33,934 nucleotides of DNA, taken from a virus. How positions within the stretch are numbered: position 1 is the first letter of the stretch; every line of letters starts with the position of its first letter. The stretch covers positions 1 to 33,934 of the IMG/VR virus record IMGVR_UViG_3300035190_000295; one strand, 5' to 3'. The position numbers were made by a program, and so were the translations under genes. The notes under the pieces are model-generated. The model was not told the DNA's origin. It searched no databases and saw only the letters and a list, made by a program, of their open reading frames with translations. Positions 2,920-30,215 of the stretch are shown here, piece after piece.

Positions 2920-3197
2920 GCTGTGTACTCCAGTGCTTGCAATTTGCTGATTTTTTCGTTGATGCCATCCACAGATCTTTGAAAGTCGGCCATCACCTTT
3001 TGCTTGTGCTTTTTCAGCGCGGCAATTTGCTGTGCGCGTGGGTCGTAGTTGTCTGGCACTTCGACCTCGATCTCTTGCTCTCCGACGTAAGTGCCGAAGT
3101 CGTCGTCGTCAGACTTAAAACTAAAAACCGTGAACTTGCCCTCGTCGTCCCACGAGTATTTGATGTAGTGGATGTATGCTGTGATTTTGACTTTCAT
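2916..3197 (-). CDS. Hypothetical protein, 93 residues
   Basis: No family recognised. The N-terminus (MKVKITAYIHYIKYSW) is beta-like, followed by an acidic patch with four consecutive Asp (DDDDFGTYVGEQEIEVEV). A helical, possibly coiled-coil C-terminus runs from AALKKHKQKVM to ISKLQALEYTA. The start at 3197 overlaps the TGA of the Sak4-like gene (ATGA) with a GGGGGC ribosome-binding region; a longer in-frame extension lies inside the upstream gene and is rejected. Confidence 0.7.
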   Translation of the reverse strand: MKVKITAYIHYIKYSWDDEGKFTVFSFKSDDDDFGTYVGEQEIEVEVPDNYDPRAQQIAALKKHKQKVMADFQRSVDGINEKISKLQALEYTA

Positions 3198-3871
3198 GCT
3201 TTGCCCCCGATCTTGGCAATAATCGCGCCCAGGTCTGGGGCTTCCCAGCCAGACAGCTTGCCCGAGCGATCCTTGGCCAGCCACAGGCCATCCGAGTCGC
3301 ACATCAGCGCACGCTGGGTCACACCCTCGGCATCACGCTCAACACGCAGCGCCAGCACTTCATCAAAGAAGTAAGGCAGGCCTTGGGTCAGGCTTTTGCC
3401 AGGCATGCCTGGGTTGTAAAGCATCTTGCCCATTTCGTCGGTGGACTTCTCCAGCTTGGCGCTCATGAACACATGCTTGCCAGGCAGATCACGGAAGGCC
3501 CGAATCAGCTCTTGCATGGTGCTGTTCATTTCACCATAGGCAGCGCGGCCATCCTTGGACTTCTTCATTTCGTGGTGCAGTACAACTTCGGCCACTTCCG
3601 AAATGCTGTCCAGCGCTACCGACTCAAAGCCTGCGGCCTCTTTGGAATCCTTGCACCAGCTAAACGCCTCGCGCAGATCGTCCATGCTTGTAATTTCGAT
3701 GTAAGGCAGGTCAGCATCCTGGATGGACAGCAGGCCACCCTCGGCTGAAAGCACAATCACGTTGGGCAACGTCTGCACCAGCGTGGTCTTGCCTGCACCC
3801 GCTGCGCCGTACACCAACAACTTCACACCATTGGCAGACAAGCTGCCTGTCGATTTCAAATTGATAGCCAT
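3194..3871 (-). CDS. Sak4-like AAA ATPase (RecA-fold recombinase)
   Basis: 225 residues with a Walker A motif YGAAGAGKTTL (about 21-31) and a Walker B-like VALDS (85-89). It fits the AAA_24/Sak4 group of short RecA/Rad51-like phage ATPases, thought to promote ssDNA annealing together with a phage ssDNA-binding protein. The nearby DUF669 and Cas4-like genes fit that pathway. It is the first gene of the leftward operon, with AAGGAGAG upstream and a promoter at about 3928-3957. Confidence in the fold is high; the exact recombinase class is inferred. Confidence 0.85.
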   Translation of the reverse strand: MAINLKSTGSLSANGVKLLVYGAAGAGKTTLVQTLPNVIVLSAEGGLLSIQDADLPYIEITSMDDLREAFSWCKDSKEAAGFESVALDSISEVAEVVLHHEMKKSKDGRAAYGEMNSTMQELIRAFRDLPGKHVFMSAKLEKSTDEMGKMLYNPGMPGKSLTQGLPYFFDEVLALRVERDAEGVTQRALMCDSDGLWLAKDRSGKLSGWEAPDLGAIIAKIGGKA

Positions 3872-4175: not shown

Positions 4176-6186
4176 CCTCTCAAACATCCTCGGCGGCCCA
4201 TGGGCTCCACCACCAGAGAAACTTGTAGCGCCACCAGAAGCACAGCTCCTAGATGCCATGCGTGCAGCAGGCCTTGAACCACCAGACGAGATACACATGG
4301 ACGGGAAAATCCATCGTTTCAAGTCAGGCACCAAAGGCTCACCAGGACACGGCGACAAGCCCGGCTGGTATTTGGTGTTTGGAGATGGCATTCCAGCCGG
4401 TCGGTTTGGCTGCTGGCGCGCAGGCATGGAAGTGACCTGGCGTGCAGACGTAGGACGCAAACTTAACCAGGCCGAAGAAATGTCCCATGCCCGGCGCCTC
4501 AGCGAGTCCAAGGCCATGCGCGATGCAGCCCTGGAGCGTCAACACCAGCTGGCCAGCGACACAGTGGAGAAAATCTGGACAGGCGCTCAGGCAGCTTTGC
4601 CAGATCACCCCTACTTGGCCAAAAAGGGCATCGGCGTTCACGGCGCCAGGGCCACAGGAGACGGTCGGCTTGTCGTCCCCCTCTACGATTCAGACGGCAC
4701 AATCTCCAGCCTCCAATACATCGACCACCAAGGCGGAAAGCTCTACCACCCAGGTGGCCAGACAGGCGGCAAGTTTTGGATGCTAGGCACCACAGACGAG
4801 CCCGGCACCCTATACGTTGCCGAAGGCTTCGCAACCGCGGCCACCATCCATGAGACCACAGGCAGGCCAGTCGTGGTGGCCTACAGCGCCAGCAACTTGG
4901 TGCCAGTCACAGGCACACTCCGAGAAATGCACGGCGCAACCCAGGACATCGTTATCGTGGCAGACAATGACAGCTCAGGCGTTGGCCAACGCTACGCAGA
5001 ACAGGCCAGCGCCAAGTTTGGGGCCAGGATGGTCATGCCACCCATCCAAGGCGATGCCAACGATTACGCCAAAGCAGGCAACGACCTGGCCAGCCTTCTC
5101 ATGCCCTCCCACGATGACTGGCTCATCCCTGCGGATGACTTCTGCTCTCAGCCATCCCCCATCAGCTGGCTCGTCAAGCGATGGATTCAATCCCAAGCAT
5201 TGGTGATGGTGCATGGCCCAAGCGGTGGCGGAAAGACATTCGTGGTGCTCGACTGGTGCCTGCGCATGGCCAGCGGAACAGAAGACTGGGCAGGCCACAA
5301 GGTCAGGAACGGCAACGTGGTGTATCTGGCCGGTGAAGGCCACCACGGTTTGCGCGGCAGGGTGGCAGCTTGGAAGCACCACCACAAAGCAGGCAAACTG
5401 GACATGTGGCTCTCCAAAGATGGCTGCGACCTCAACACCCCGACCGGATACCTCAAAGTGGTCGAGCAGGTCAGGATGCTGAAAGACAGACCTAGCGTGA
5501 TCGTGGTCGATACCCTGCACCGATTCTTGGCTGGAGACGAAAACAGCGCTCAAGATGCCAAGACCATGCTGGACGCATGCAATGCTCTCATGATGGAATT
5601 CAACTGCTCGGTGATCTTGGTGCACCACACAGGCGTGTCAGACGAAGCCCAGCACCGGGCACGCGGATCCAGCGCTTGGCGCGGCGCTCTCGACATCGAG
5701 ATTAGCATCGTGCCAGGCAAGGACGACCAGCCAATGCAGATCGTCCAGCGCAAGTCCAAAGACGCAGAACTGGCCGAGACCGTTTTCGTGGAACTTCACA
5801 CAGTCGAGATCCCAGGCTGGCGCGATGAAGACGACCAGCAAGTCACCAGCGCAGTCGTTGTGGAGGCCTCAGCACCCGCTCAGGCCAGCAAAAAGGACAG
5901 CAAGATCGACACCCACCGCAAGACATTTGAAAACGCATGGTGGGCATCAGGAGCCGAAGAGCGTAATGGTTTACCCTACCTCAGCCGCTCGGCAATGACA
6001 GACTATTTGGTGCAAAAACTTGCCCTCAGCAAGGCTTCGGCCAAGCAATACATCAAGCCAAGCGTGCCAGGAAAACCCATCGCAGATCTTCTCACAGCAC
6101 AAATTATCGAGGCCTTTGAGCATGGCTGGATTGTCATCGACCAAGTTCAGGCCAGCGCAATGCTGATCCGAAAATCAATGCCATGA
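4168..6186 (+). CDS. Toprim primase / RepA-like hexameric helicase
   Basis: This 672-residue fusion has a Toprim domain with YVAEGFATAATI (about 215-226) and VIVADNDSSGVG (263-274) after a poorly conserved N-terminus. A RecA-fold helicase follows: Walker A HGPSGGGKTF (about 349-358), Walker B VIVVDTLHRF (444-453) and a sensor-like VILVHHTG (481-488), resembling AAA_25/RepA helicases. It should prime and unwind phage DNA at the replication fork. A candidate origin lies about 1 kb downstream. No N-terminal zinc finger is obvious. The C-terminal 100 residues may be a separate winged domain. Confidence 0.88.
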   Translation: MADLSNILGGPWAPPPEKLVAPPEAQLLDAMRAAGLEPPDEIHMDGKIHRFKSGTKGSPGHGDKPGWYLVFGDGIPAGRFGCWRAGMEVTWRADVGRKLNQAEEMSHARRLSESKAMRDAALERQHQLASDTVEKIWTGAQAALPDHPYLAKKGIGVHGARATGDGRLVVPLYDSDGTISSLQYIDHQGGKLYHPGGQTGGKFWMLGTTDEPGTLYVAEGFATAATIHETTGRPVVVAYSASNLVPVTGTLREMHGATQDIVIVADNDSSGVGQRYAEQASAKFGARMVMPPIQGDANDYAKAGNDLASLLMPSHDDWLIPADDFCSQPSPISWLVKRWIQSQALVMVHGPSGGGKTFVVLDWCLRMASGTEDWAGHKVRNGNVVYLAGEGHHGLRGRVAAWKHHHKAGKLDMWLSKDGCDLNTPTGYLKVVEQVRMLKDRPSVIVVDTLHRFLAGDENSAQDAKTMLDACNALMMEFNCSVILVHHTGVSDEAQHRARGSSAWRGALDIEISIVPGKDDQPMQIVQRKSKDAELAETVFVELHTVEIPGWRDEDDQQVTSAVVVEASAPAQASKKDSKIDTHRKTFENAWWASGAEERNGLPYLSRSAMTDYLVQKLALSKASAKQYIKPSVPGKPIADLLTAQIIEAFEHGWIVIDQVQASAMLIRKSMP

Positions 6187-24900: not shown

Positions 24901-26163
24901 ATGTCCGCACTCTCGATCCAGCCAACCTATCCGATCTTTCAAGGCCGTGATGGGCAGCCACTGGAGAACGGTTACGTTTGGATAGGCGAGCCGAATCTAA
25001 ACCCACAGACCAACCCAGTCGTGGTGTATTTCGATGCAGCCCTCACCATCCCAGCACCACAGCCACTGCGCACGCTTAACGGCTATATCTCACGCGCAGG
25101 CACACCAGCCCAGATCTACGTCAATGCCGTGAATTTCAGCATCTTGGTGCAGGACGGCAATGGCTCGATGGTCTACAACTTTCCAGAAGGCGCAGGCGCA
25201 GCCCCATTCGCACTGAAGGGTGCTAATAGCGACATCACCAGCTTAAGCGGACTTACTACGGCGTTGTCTGTCCTGCAAGGCGGCACGGGTGCAACAACCG
25301 CAGGCGCAGCCCCATTCGCACTAAAGGGTGCTAATAGCGACATCACCAGCTTAAGCGGACTTACTACGGCGTTGTCTGTCCTGCAAGGCGGCACAGGCAC
25401 TACGGGTGGTGTACCAGACAAAATCCAGACCATCGGCGGCTCGGTAGCAGCGTCGGCGCTCACGGTCACGGCGGGCGCATTGGCTCTGGATTTTCGCAGT
25501 GCTACGCTCACCAGCGGCACGATCACCACCGTAAGCGGCACGCCCGCGAGTCTGGTTGTACCCAGCGGTGCAACGCTTGGCACAGTCAACGCGGTGCAAT
25601 CCCGTATCGTGGTGCTGGCCCTCAACAACGCGGGCACGATAGAGCTGGCAGTCGTCAATATCAGCGGCGGCAACGACCTGACAGAGACAGGCGTAATCAG
25701 CACCACGGCAATCAGCGCGGCGGCTGACGTTGCCAACGTGATTTACTCCACCACGGCGCGAACATCGGTTGCTTACCGCGTAGTTGGATACGTGGAAAGT
25801 ACACAAGCCACTGCGGGGACTTGGACCACTACGCCAAGCACGATTCAAGGACAAGGTGGGCAGGCTCTAGCGGCTATGAGTTCGCTGGGGTATGGGCAGA
25901 CTTGGCAGAACGTCACAGGGTCTAGAACAGTAGGAACAACCTACTACAACACCACAGGAAAACCGATACAACTCCAGTTATCAGGGAACAACGCAACGGT
26001 TTCAACACTAACAATAACTGTCAACGGCGTGGCGGCGGTATCTGCGGGGCTAGGCGCAACGTTCCTTGCAAGCTACTCGGTGGCAATCCCGCCAACAGCT
26101 ACTTACGTCGTTGCCGTCACAGCGGGTTCATTGGCAAATGTTACATGGACAGAACTTCGCTAA
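24901..26163 (+). CDS. Tailspike/tail fibre with P22 head-binding domain
   Basis: 420 residues. The first 100 residues (IQPTYPIFQGRDGQPLENGYVWIGEPNLNPQTNPVVVYFD...ISRAGTPAQIYVN...FSILVQDGNGSMVYN) match the P22 gp9 head-binding domain. A tandem 36-residue repeat follows (about 98-169) with the fibre-type LQGGTGATT motif, then a beta-rich C-terminus without a recognisable polysaccharide-depolymerising domain. It is much shorter than P22 gp9 (667), so it may bind rather than cut its receptor. This is the probable host-range determinant. Confidence 0.87.
   Translation: MSALSIQPTYPIFQGRDGQPLENGYVWIGEPNLNPQTNPVVVYFDAALTIPAPQPLRTLNGYISRAGTPAQIYVNAVNFSILVQDGNGSMVYNFPEGAGAAPFALKGANSDITSLSGLTTALSVLQGGTGATTAGAAPFALKGANSDITSLSGLTTALSVLQGGTGTTGGVPDKIQTIGGSVAASALTVTAGALALDFRSATLTSGTITTVSGTPASLVVPSGATLGTVNAVQSRIVVLALNNAGTIELAVVNISGGNDLTETGVISTTAISAAADVANVIYSTTARTSVAYRVVGYVESTQATAGTWTTTPSTIQGQGGQALAAMSSLGYGQTWQNVTGSRTVGTTYYNTTGKPIQLQLSGNNATVSTLTITVNGVAAVSAGLGATFLASYSVAIPPTATYVVAVTAGSLANVTWTELR
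25193..25396. repeat. Tandem 108-bp direct repeat inside the tailspike gene
   Basis: Copy one spans 25193-25300 and copy two 25301-25396, the second cut short where the sequences diverge. They differ only at a silent CTG/CTA codon before diverging. Near identity shows a recent duplication, in frame (36 codons). Confidence 0.92.
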
Positions 26164-27401: not shown

Positions 27402-27477
27402 CCTGCTGGTTTTCCGAGAGTTGTACGGCTGTGGACGCATATGCATATGCCAGCATCATCAGGGTTTCGTGGGTCAT
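27349..27477 (-). CDS. Small hypothetical protein, 42 residues (last gene of leftward operon)
   Basis: ATG 27477-27475 overlaps the TGA of the upstream leftward gene (ATGA) and is preceded by AAAGGAGCCAAC, exactly the ribosome-binding sequence used by that upstream gene. The product starts MTHETLMMLAYAYASTAVQ and ends with a basic RCCACRRG stretch. Within it is a 14-bp palindrome, GCATATGCATATGC (27437-27450). It overlaps the holin gene tail to tail by 53 bases. No family known. Confidence 0.5.
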   Translation of the reverse strand: MTHETLMMLAYAYASTAVQLSENQQVRCCACRRGTKQHRPAL

Positions 27478-27785
27478 GTTGGCTCCTTTGGTGCGAATAG
27501 AGGGCGGACTTCGTACACTGCTTTCCCCATGTAGCGATACGCTTGTAGTTCCCGCACTATTTCATTCACGGTTGACCCAATACGCGCCTCAATAGGCGTC
27601 CATTTTTGTGCGCCCGCATCTGGGTTGCCTCCGGGATTTGTCCAGCGAAATTCGTAGCCAGCAGGCTCAAGTGCCTCCGCGAGCGCATCGGACAGGGCTG
27701 CGCGAGCATCCTCTTGTTTCGTCTGGTGGTTCAAGGCTGCTCGCGCAAGCACATCTGCCAGCGCCATAAATTCATCGTGTTTCAT
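27474..27785 (-). CDS. Hypothetical protein, 103 residues
   Basis: The sequence MKHDEFMALADVLARAALNHQTKQEDARAALSDALAEALEPAGYEFRW, then PIEARIGSTVNEIVRELQAYRYMGKAVYEVRPLFAP, has a helical N-terminus and a small beta-containing C-terminus. No named family. ATG 27785 has AAAGGAGCC upstream. An in-frame ATG at 27806 (7 codons longer) also has a good AAAGGAGG and is a real alternative. The longer open frame upstream is the shadow of the Ala-rich gene. Confidence 0.7.
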   Translation of the reverse strand: MKHDEFMALADVLARAALNHQTKQEDARAALSDALAEALEPAGYEFRWTNPGGNPDAGAQKWTPIEARIGSTVNEIVRELQAYRYMGKAVYEVRPLFAPKEPT

Positions 27786-27807
27786 GTTGGCTCCTTTGTC
27801 GTTCATT

Positions 27808-28368
27808 TCACGCGCCTCCTTTGCATTGCTCACAAATAAATAGCAAATACATGGCTTGCTGGTCCCTCGAAGCATCCCACGCAGCAGCCGACGCAGCAGC
27901 AGAAGCATCCCACGCAGTATCCCTCGCAGCAGCCGCCGCAGCAGCCCACGCAGTATCCCTCGCAGCATCCGCAGCAGCAGCAGCAGAAGCAGCCCACGCA
28001 CCCCCCGCAGCTCTCGCAGCAGCTCTCGCAGCAGCTTTCGCAGCAGCTTTCGCATCATCCAATTCCGCTTGTGTTGCTTGGCCGCGCGCAAACTTCTCGG
28101 CGACATCTATGATCTTTATACTCCTTGGGTCAGTCATCAAATGCTGCACGCTGCGGGCGCACTCCACTGCAAAAAGTCTGATCTCTTTGTCGCGCCCATC
28201 TACTGCACTCAGGCACCATAAGGCATAGTCCAACCCATTGCTCTCAAGTATCACGGGTATATCCAACGGCTCGTCGTCTGCTTGGGTCTTGCCGAGGTTT
28301 TTGAGCAGCTTCTGCCAGCCCGCAGTGCACGGCAAATTAGCTCTGATTTTGTTTAGTGTTGTGTGCAT
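27808..28368 (-). CDS. Alanine-rich repeat protein (A-W-D repeats), unknown function
   Basis: 186 residues. The N-terminal domain (about 1-95) includes DYALWCLSAVDGRDKEIRLFAVECARSVQHLMTDPRSIKIIDVAEKFARGQAT, a module I remember from many phage and bacterial proteins. A low-complexity helix follows (about 100-165), built from Ala with periodic Trp, Arg and Asp (DAARDTAWAAAAAA...ARDTAWDASAAA). The C-terminus is MYLLFICEQCKGGA. It is predicted to be a long amphipathic helix. AAAGGAGGTGCGTA before the ATG is a near-perfect ribosome-binding site. Confidence 0.75.
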   Translation of the reverse strand: MHTTLNKIRANLPCTAGWQKLLKNLGKTQADDEPLDIPVILESNGLDYALWCLSAVDGRDKEIRLFAVECARSVQHLMTDPRSIKIIDVAEKFARGQATQAELDDAKAAAKAAARAAARAAGGAWAASAAAAADAARDTAWAAAAAAARDTAWDASAAASAAAWDASRDQQAMYLLFICEQCKGGA

Positions 28369-28841
28369 TACGCACCTCCTTTGATGTTGTGGCGGCGCTC
28401 TGCAAACTTCACGCCGAGTTCAAAAACTTCAATGAAGCAAACGCTGTCGGCAATCCATACCTCTTTGCACCCTTGAAGAATCTCAGAGTTCATCAGTGGG
28501 CTAGCGCTTGGAGCGGCCCACGCCTCCATCATCTCAGCCTCTTTGGACCACGGTGCAAACGGTAGGCTGGTGCTTGGAGCGGCCTGTGGTTGCACTTCGA
28601 TTAGTGTCCCATCAGGTTGTTCCTCCATGTGTCTAGTGCTTGGAGCGGCCATCTTGCAAACCAAACAATCTTCGCCAGGAAAGATTCCCTTCCAGCCGCA
28701 GACATTGCACAAATCCATTGCCTGCTGGTCGTAGGTGCTTGGAGCGGCCAGATCCAAAACTGCGTGTAGTCCGTCAATAACCTTTTCGCAGCCATTGAAA
28801 GCGGCGAGCAGTTCTTTGTCTGTTGGGGTTGTTGTGTGCAT
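28368..28841 (-). CDS. Modular hypothetical protein with four AAPS(T/A) linkers and a CxxC
   Basis: 157 residues. Short segments are separated by AAPST, AAPST, AAPST and AAPSA linkers. One segment carries DLCNVCGWKGIFPGEDCLVCKM, a probable four-Cys zinc ribbon. The C-terminal part (VWIADSVCFIEVFELGVKFAERRHNIKGGA) is conserved-looking. The ribosome-binding site AAAGGAGGTGCGTA is identical to that of the downstream Ala-rich gene. The linkers come from a 13-bp DNA repeat at spacings that are multiples of 33 bp. Function unknown. Confidence 0.7.
   Translation of the reverse strand: MHTTTPTDKELLAAFNGCEKVIDGLHAVLDLAAPSTYDQQAMDLCNVCGWKGIFPGEDCLVCKMAAPSTRHMEEQPDGTLIEVQPQAAPSTSLPFAPWSKEAEMMEAWAAPSASPLMNSEILQGCKEVWIADSVCFIEVFELGVKFAERRHNIKGGA
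28506..28749. repeat. Four dispersed copies of GCTTGGAGCGGCC within one gene
   Basis: Exact copies begin at 28506, 28572, 28638 and 28737, i.e. spacings 66, 66 and 99, all multiples of 33. On the minus strand each encodes the AAPS linker. They look like recombination joints between protein segments. Confidence 0.9.
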
Positions 28842-28936
28842 TACGCACCTCCTTTGACGGCTTCTGTTGCTTCCCGCTCGGTGTGGTTATCGTCGGCCTG
28901 GCGCTGGCCCATCATTGATGTGTTCATGCAGTTCAT
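28841..28936 (-). CDS. Very small hypothetical protein, 31 residues
   Basis: ATG 28936 overlaps the upstream stop (ATGA) and the TAA shares a base with the next ATG (TAATG). The product is hydrophilic (MNCMNTSMMGQRQADDNHTE, then REATEAVKGGA). Its last codons AAA GGA GGT GCG double as the ribosome-binding site of the next gene. It may chiefly act as a coupling peptide. Confidence 0.5.
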   Translation of the reverse strand: MNCMNTSMMGQRQADDNHTEREATEAVKGGA

Positions 28937-29595: not shown

Positions 29596-30078
29596 TTATA
29601 TCGCAGTGATCTCCACATCATGCGGTTTACGCTTCCCATCCAGCAGCTCATGCAGGCGTTTCTCGGTCAGGCGGTGGCAGCGAATCATGGTGCGTGCAGG
29701 CAGCAAATCCAACAGCGCGGCGTAATCCTCCAGCACAGCACGCACGGCTTGAATCCCAGCACCGTCCAGCCGGATCGCGCCCCCAGCAGTGTTGCGGCGG
29801 CCAGCATGGGCCATCGCGGTGATGGCATCCATCAGCAAGCCAGAACTGTCCTCGCACACTTGCATGGTCTCGATCAGGGTCTCCATCAGGTTGACCGCAT
29901 CCGATACCACCCGCCAGTCGTCTGTCGTTGGGCTTGGCGCTTTTTCCATGGCGGCCAGGCCTTCGTACATCCTGGTGAGCTGGTACGTTTTCCAGGCCAA
30001 CGGCAGCGGCTCAGTCGGGCTGGCCATCATCTCATCGAGGATGGTGTAGTGCTTGGGCCTTGGCTTGCGCTTTCGCAT
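29596..30078 (-). CDS. Hypothetical protein, 160 residues, all-helical
   Basis: A basic start (MRKRKPRPKHYTILDEMMAS) is followed by helices (TYQLTRMYEGLAAMEKAPSPTTDDWRVVSDAVNLMETLIE, QAVRAVLEDYAALLDLLPARTMIRCHRLTEKRLHELLDGK). It belongs to a group of phage proteins I recognise by pattern but which carries no functional name. GGAGGGGGTACTG precedes ATG 30078; the longer frame overlaps a separate 45-residue gene. Confidence 0.7.
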   Translation of the reverse strand: MRKRKPRPKHYTILDEMMASPTEPLPLAWKTYQLTRMYEGLAAMEKAPSPTTDDWRVVSDAVNLMETLIETMQVCEDSSGLLMDAITAMAHAGRRNTAGGAIRLDGAGIQAVRAVLEDYAALLDLLPARTMIRCHRLTEKRLHELLDGKRKPHDVEITAI

Positions 30079-30215
30079 CAGTACCCCCTCCAGATGCGCA
30101 CATCCACCAGCCACAGGGATAAGAAGAACTCGCCATCGGTAAAACCAATGCCGAACACCGGCCACTTGTGCATCAGCGTCTCAATGCTGATCTTGATCTG
30201 CTTTCTCAACGGCAT
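30078..30215 (-). CDS. Small hypothetical protein, 45 residues
   Basis: ATG 30215 lies inside the end of the RHH gene (10-base overlap) and the TGA shares a base with the next ATG (TGATG). The product starts MPLRKQIKISIETLMHKWPV and has an aromatic C-terminus (FFLSLWLVDVRIWRGY). The final RGY* codons contain GGAGGGGG, the ribosome-binding site of the next gene. No family known. Confidence 0.5.
   Translation of the reverse strand: MPLRKQIKISIETLMHKWPVFGIGFTDGEFFLSLWLVDVRIWRGY

Follow-up and report, generated by a model that had tools for sequence, protein, structure and literature searches.

A gene on the minus strand of this virus sequence (28368-28841) encodes a 157-aa protein made of five short segments, or beads, joined by four linkers, and our overall reading is that such beads are likely shuffled in frame by recombination at conserved linker DNA, by an enzyme that is only inferred. 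The identity of the linkers is shown, as is the same bead and linker pattern with another word in relatives; that the linkers act as ready-made splice points for protein parts is likely. The window, by which we mean the whole stretch of DNA analysed, is 33,934 nt long (the 33.9-kb virus record IMGVR_UViG_3300035190_000295, positions 1 to 33,934). It encodes a P22-like portal (phrog_156), a major head protein, a terminase and a primase/helicase, together with three minus-strand genes for a Cas4-domain exonuclease (phrog_1990; 217-1293), a single-strand DNA binding protein (SSB, with phrog_6015 and phrog_378 among its hits; 1303-1803) and a Sak4-like annealing protein (phrog_124; 3194-3871), the candidate recombination enzyme. 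Upstream of the bead gene are genes for a helicase, a VRR-NUC protein and an Arc-like repressor, and a convergent endolysin gene comes just after it. Two other repeats were seen in the window: an array of about 50 hexamer copies (80% matches) at 1851-2148, beside the start of the SSB gene, which encodes an Ala/Met/Leu run on the minus strand, and a 108-bp near-perfect (98%) tandem duplication at 25191-25394 within a tail-like gene (24901-26163).

The 13-mer GCTTGGAGCGGCC occurs exactly four times, at 28506, 28572, 28638 and 28737 (spacing 66, 66 and 99), and no further mismatch-free copy is present anywhere else in the window. Read on the minus strand as G GCC GCT CCA AGC, all four copies lie in one frame of the 157-aa ORF. 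In protein order, linker 1 (28737-28749), linker 2 (28638-28650) and linker 3 (28572-28584) encode AAPST and linker 4 (28506-28518) encodes AAPSA, each from GGCCGCTCCAAGC on the minus strand. The segments between them, 17-44 aa long and mutually unlike, are MHTTTPTDKELLAAFNGCEKVIDGLHAVLDL (segment 1, 28749-28841), a Cys4 ribbon, YDQQAMDLCNVCGWKGIFPGEDCLVCKM, with the spacing CNVC-x10-CLVC (segment 2, 28650-28733), the short acidic RHMEEQPDGTLIEVQPQ (segment 3, 28584-28634), SLPFAPWSKEAEMMEAW, the PFAPWSKEAEMMEAW piece (segment 4, 28518-28568) and a longer C-terminal piece, PLMNSEILQGCKEVW...KGGA (segment 5, 28371-28502), all on the minus strand. The first-pass annotation, made from the sequence alone, had described four in-frame 13-bp copies encoding AAPS linkers between unlike segments, one of them a Cys4 ribbon, in a phage with an annealing recombinase. 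All of this held, with the role of the Sak4-like protein in shuffling only inferred. The bead protein had no fitting family in the Pfam or PHROGs results, and its structure model (AlphaFold on two sequences, pLDDT 43) was uninformative.

We asked how often the repeat would arise if the same protein were recoded, using 20,000 synonymous versions drawn with the codon usage of the window. A 13-mer occurred four times in 0/20,000 recodings, three times in 1 and two times in 662. As no recoding produced any four-copy 13-mer, linker identity is at the DNA level.

A single close relative was found, the contig IMGVR 3300032046_000322 (L124, also indexed as L128, L133 and L156). It carries the same bead gene (4443-4946), with common beads about 97% identical in DNA to those of the window, segment 3 being identical. 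Its five linkers differ from the 13-mer by 2, 0, 2, 0 and 1 mismatches, so linker identity decays; the counterpart of linker 1 encodes AALST, and linker 2 is unchanged. Between its linkers 3 and 4, L124 has an extra 87-bp unit consisting of a segment plus a linker (AAPNT-GPEPQSQFGSSDLQALILANLTRQ), which is missing at linker 3 of the window. The window joint, CCACAGGCCGCTCCAAGCACCAG, combines the left flank of L124 linker 3 with the right flank of L124 linker 4, and the crossover point falls inside CAGGCCGCTCC, 11 bp of exact homology. Linker 3 of the window is, in other words, exactly the recombinant expected between L124 linkers 3 and 4. The C-terminal segment differs as well: homology to L124 stops just past linker 4, beyond which L124 has LATENAALRAGVDISTLCAPKEPT in place of segment 5 and the gene ends are unrelated. 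Comparison of the window with L124 thus shows the gain or loss of one bead and the replacement of another, both at linkers, although whether the 87-bp change was a loss in the window or a gain in L124 is undecidable from two sequences. The first-pass annotation had proposed module shuffling at the linker DNA, to be checked in relatives for gain, loss or reordering of segments at the 13-mers; that check was run and was positive in L124, which shows both segment gain or loss and a swap. It had also pointed to spacings in multiples of 33. The spacings are true, but their meaning failed: a structural period of 33 was rejected as coincidence, given the 87-bp unit of L124.

Of the relatives, only L124 carried the exact 13-mer (among 80 related loci, its sole occurrence, L156, is the same contig), matches of the 15-base linker word in viral contigs were mostly single and chance-like, and no viral contig had two linker copies 50-80 bp apart in a scan that left out the window's own record. 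A tblastn search of bead proteins against isolated phages gave no match, and a first scan of bacterial genomes gave no relative.

The 80 loci, from the same P22-like phage group, were gathered using the neighbouring gene at 29596-30090 as query, and several of them have bead genes with another repeated linker, AAPVQEPVA. In an unbiased screen, all 15-mers in these loci and a few added loci were ranked by their unlike flanks. The top 15-mer was an in-frame linker, GCACCTGTGCAGGAG (APVQE), with 16 upstream and 20 downstream flanks in 18 loci; next came a gene junction (Shine-Dalgarno plus overlapping stop/start) and then an LYTTPPAA linker. When sites were picked by peptide rather than DNA, one 15-mer was used at 19/20 APVQE sites (expected 0.6%, at most 1.5%) and one word at 14/18 YTTPP sites (expected 0.4%). 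Linkers with unrelated DNA, which would have counted against shuffling, were therefore not what we saw, the linker DNA being conserved beyond codon usage in both the window and its relatives.

At least 120 viral stretches carried a 20-base version of the APVQEPVA word. Among 84,980 bacterial and archaeal genomes, it occurred in one contig only, a Rhodoferax metagenome contig (L338) on which the surrounding genes are what we take to be phage-like. A small bead gene at 2359-2676 of this contig combines the APVQE linker with the junction word AAACTCAAGGAGAAGAACACATGA, which hints at a possible Comamonadaceae host for this phage pool. All 129 copies of the 20-base word that were inspected lie in frame, in ORFs of at least 60 aa. 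Its 147 distinct contexts join 117 upstream clusters to 133 downstream clusters; 10 downstream beads occur with 2-3 different upstream partners, and 12 upstream clusters are each joined to more than one downstream cluster, with no complete four-combination set among the 147 contexts. The word crosses phage types, since the long carriers that were tested measure 33 to 99 kb and a P22-like portal is present in only some of them. Pairwise alignment ends in the relatives' bead genes fell near the two linker words in 25/92 cases (15 expected, 1.7 times), a positive result but a modest one, given that there are other joints and that alignment ends are not independent of each other.

Could this be an ordinary flexible-linker architecture, in which identical linker DNA reflects recent intragenic duplication plus codon bias and has no recombination role? 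Four copies in one gene could stem from duplication, and Ala/Pro-rich linkers are common. However, the segments are unlike, no tandem duplication is visible and codon bias cannot yield the identity; related contigs break at linkers; and a single linker DNA has 117 x 133 unlike flanks. Plain duplication and codon bias were both rejected as the source of the identity, on the recoding result and the uniformity of APVQE DNA in relatives. This explanation is unlikely, being already largely refuted by the gain or loss of a bead at a linker.

Individual beads also recur in other phages. Segment 1 is related to the bead SDEQMLAAFNSADSVIDGLHEVL within unlike bead proteins of L129 and L130, and segment 4 recurs as PFVPWSKEAEM or QRWSKEAEMMESW in unlike bead proteins of L125, L127, L131 and L132. 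These matches of window segments to unlike proteins are about 20-35 aa long, apart from one gapped alignment of 51. In L129, the long protein has, besides its segment-1 bead, a Lar restriction-alleviation Zn-ribbon (PF14354) as first bead. In another pair of contigs (L167 and L169), a bead is 98.4% identical over 128 bp, from the linker to an RQWVGL joint.

Conserved DNA marks gene borders too. A perfect 28-bp repeat on the minus strand, with the Shine-Dalgarno word AAAGGAGG and an overlapping stop/start, TAATG, sits at two gene starts (28830-28857, with its second copy at 28357-28384). The junction word AAACTCAAGGAGAAGAACACATGA behaves in relatives like this repeat. A further gene-junction word is seen in L124, where APKEPT ends three successive genes (4926-4946, 5234-5254 and 5623-5643), encoded each time by GCACCAAAGGAACCAACATGA or a close variant of it. 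A 64-nt direct repeat (70%) at 27427-27490 and 27735-27798, at two minus-strand gene starts (MTHETL... and MKHDEF...), suggests duplicated gene starts. An Ala-rich gene (phrog_18326; 27808-28368, minus strand) is missing at the corresponding place in L124, where the bead gene is followed immediately by the next gene (27474-27785, minus strand; protein 97% identical). In the relatives, the region downstream of 29596-30090, the query gene, is also mosaic at the gene level. A homologue of the Ala-rich repeat gene in another contig (L204, 7503-8279) has a longer repeat and a different tail, the window's tail DQQAMYLLFICEQCKGGA not being common to it. As the first-pass annotation had claimed, the DNA for DQQAM in the bead gene (28710-28730) matches the end of the Ala-rich gene (27844-27864) at 18/21 bases in the same frame. 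No other 21-mer matches better between these genes, but the cysteine spacing after DQQAM differs, and a link between them remains only possible, since one short match proves little by itself.

These junctions bear on a second alternative, that linker DNA is kept as a regulatory or internal translation signal and that shuffling is secondary. In its favour, GCACCTGTGCAGGAG holds a Shine-Dalgarno-like AGGAG, and Shine-Dalgarno words are also the joints of genuine gene junctions in these phages. Against it, the window word GGCCGCTCCAAGC lacks any such motif, and no start codon is suitably spaced from it; we consider this explanation very unlikely. We give as little credence to a third, that the linker word is a small mobile or site-specific element (a recombinase site, or an in-frame insertion like the Rickettsia palindromic elements) spreading between proteins. 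In its favour, a single word is widespread among phages and almost missing from bacterial genomes. However, the observed event removes a bead plus one linker rather than a linker by itself; the words, of 13-15 bp, show no clear dyad symmetry, and two unrelated words occur in related phages; and the scan of neighbouring genes turned up no recognisable recombinase gene.

Returning to shuffling at the linkers, the gene product would be a string of short independent beads of 17-44 aa, and the linkers, conserved as DNA beyond their amino acids, would serve as short homology at which beads are joined, deleted or replaced in frame. Exchange may occur by annealing or copy-choice recombination at the linkers, possibly assisted by phage recombinases (Sak4, SSB and the exonuclease in the window, ERF in relatives), with selection presumably retaining the shuffled products; each of these steps is inferred. 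Phage recombinases tolerate diverged homology (PMC3945230). Among the P22-like contigs tested, Sak4 was found in the window, L165, L148 and L162, and ERF in L151, L172 and L168. None of Sak4, ERF and RecT was found in the L273 contig, and all three were undetected in several bead-carrying contigs, many of them incomplete. A strict link to Sak4 as a general rule was rejected, as other bead carriers have ERF or none of the three families. That units move with borders at linkers is shown; the enzyme is not, as only gene content was surveyed. A bolder reading, against which we lean slightly, is that in-frame linker words serve as common adapters among phages of different kinds that share hosts, and that recombination can thereby plug short peptide beads from a community-wide pool into accessory proteins. 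This would amount to an intragenic cassette system with no integrase.

Mosaicism of phage proteins is already known. Phage proteins that are otherwise unrelated share fragments through shuffling (Smug et al, 2023; PMC10684548), and those authors expect more mosaicism in accessory proteins of unknown function. Segments 1 and 4 meet this description as fragments common to otherwise unrelated proteins. In contrast, the sequence criterion used there, common fragments of at least 50 aa, is not met by beads mostly of 17-44 aa with DNA-conserved linkers, and the word 'linker' is absent from its main text. Boundary sequences occur at module borders in lambdoid phages, and relaxed homologous recombination has been described in these phages (De Paepe et al, 2014; PMC3945230). 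As there, where short or imperfect homology at module borders lets phage recombinases make mosaics, conserved short DNA is present here at the joints of exchanged units (linkers and gene junctions), but the joints in the window are also intragenic and in frame, with homology of 11-20 bp, not hundreds. The lambda Ea22 and exo-xis proteins (PMC10834534, PMC7093339) are likewise early-region accessory proteins, variable between phages and with several parts per chain. Ea22 differs in its coiled coil and its folded C-terminal domain; linker DNA is not discussed in either paper, and the window protein had no match to the Ea22 family in the Pfam or PHROGs results. Lar restriction-alleviation proteins are connected through L129, where the Lar Zn-ribbon shares a chain with the segment-1 bead, although the PF14354 profile did not match the window protein, its Cys4 segment included. 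Variation by whole segments does not fit the adenine mutagenesis of a diversity-generating retroelement target. Bead strings with conserved linker DNA were not described in the open-access literature searched; beads so short with DNA-conserved linkers appear undescribed there, though absence is not proof of novelty.

The early-type gene neighbours, the ribbon and the Lar bead of L129 suggest host takeover or anti-defence, and our best guess is that bead proteins are accessory adaptors for one of these, each bead binding something different; both function and binding are inferred. The origin of new phage accessory proteins is an unsolved question. Should linker words prove to be recombination joints, they would offer a route visible in sequence data: beads could be catalogued, metagenomes could be used to measure their exchange, and both the required enzyme and the homology length would become testable. 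If true, this would also account for the many small phage proteins that are hard to place in families, because whole-protein families do not exist for them.
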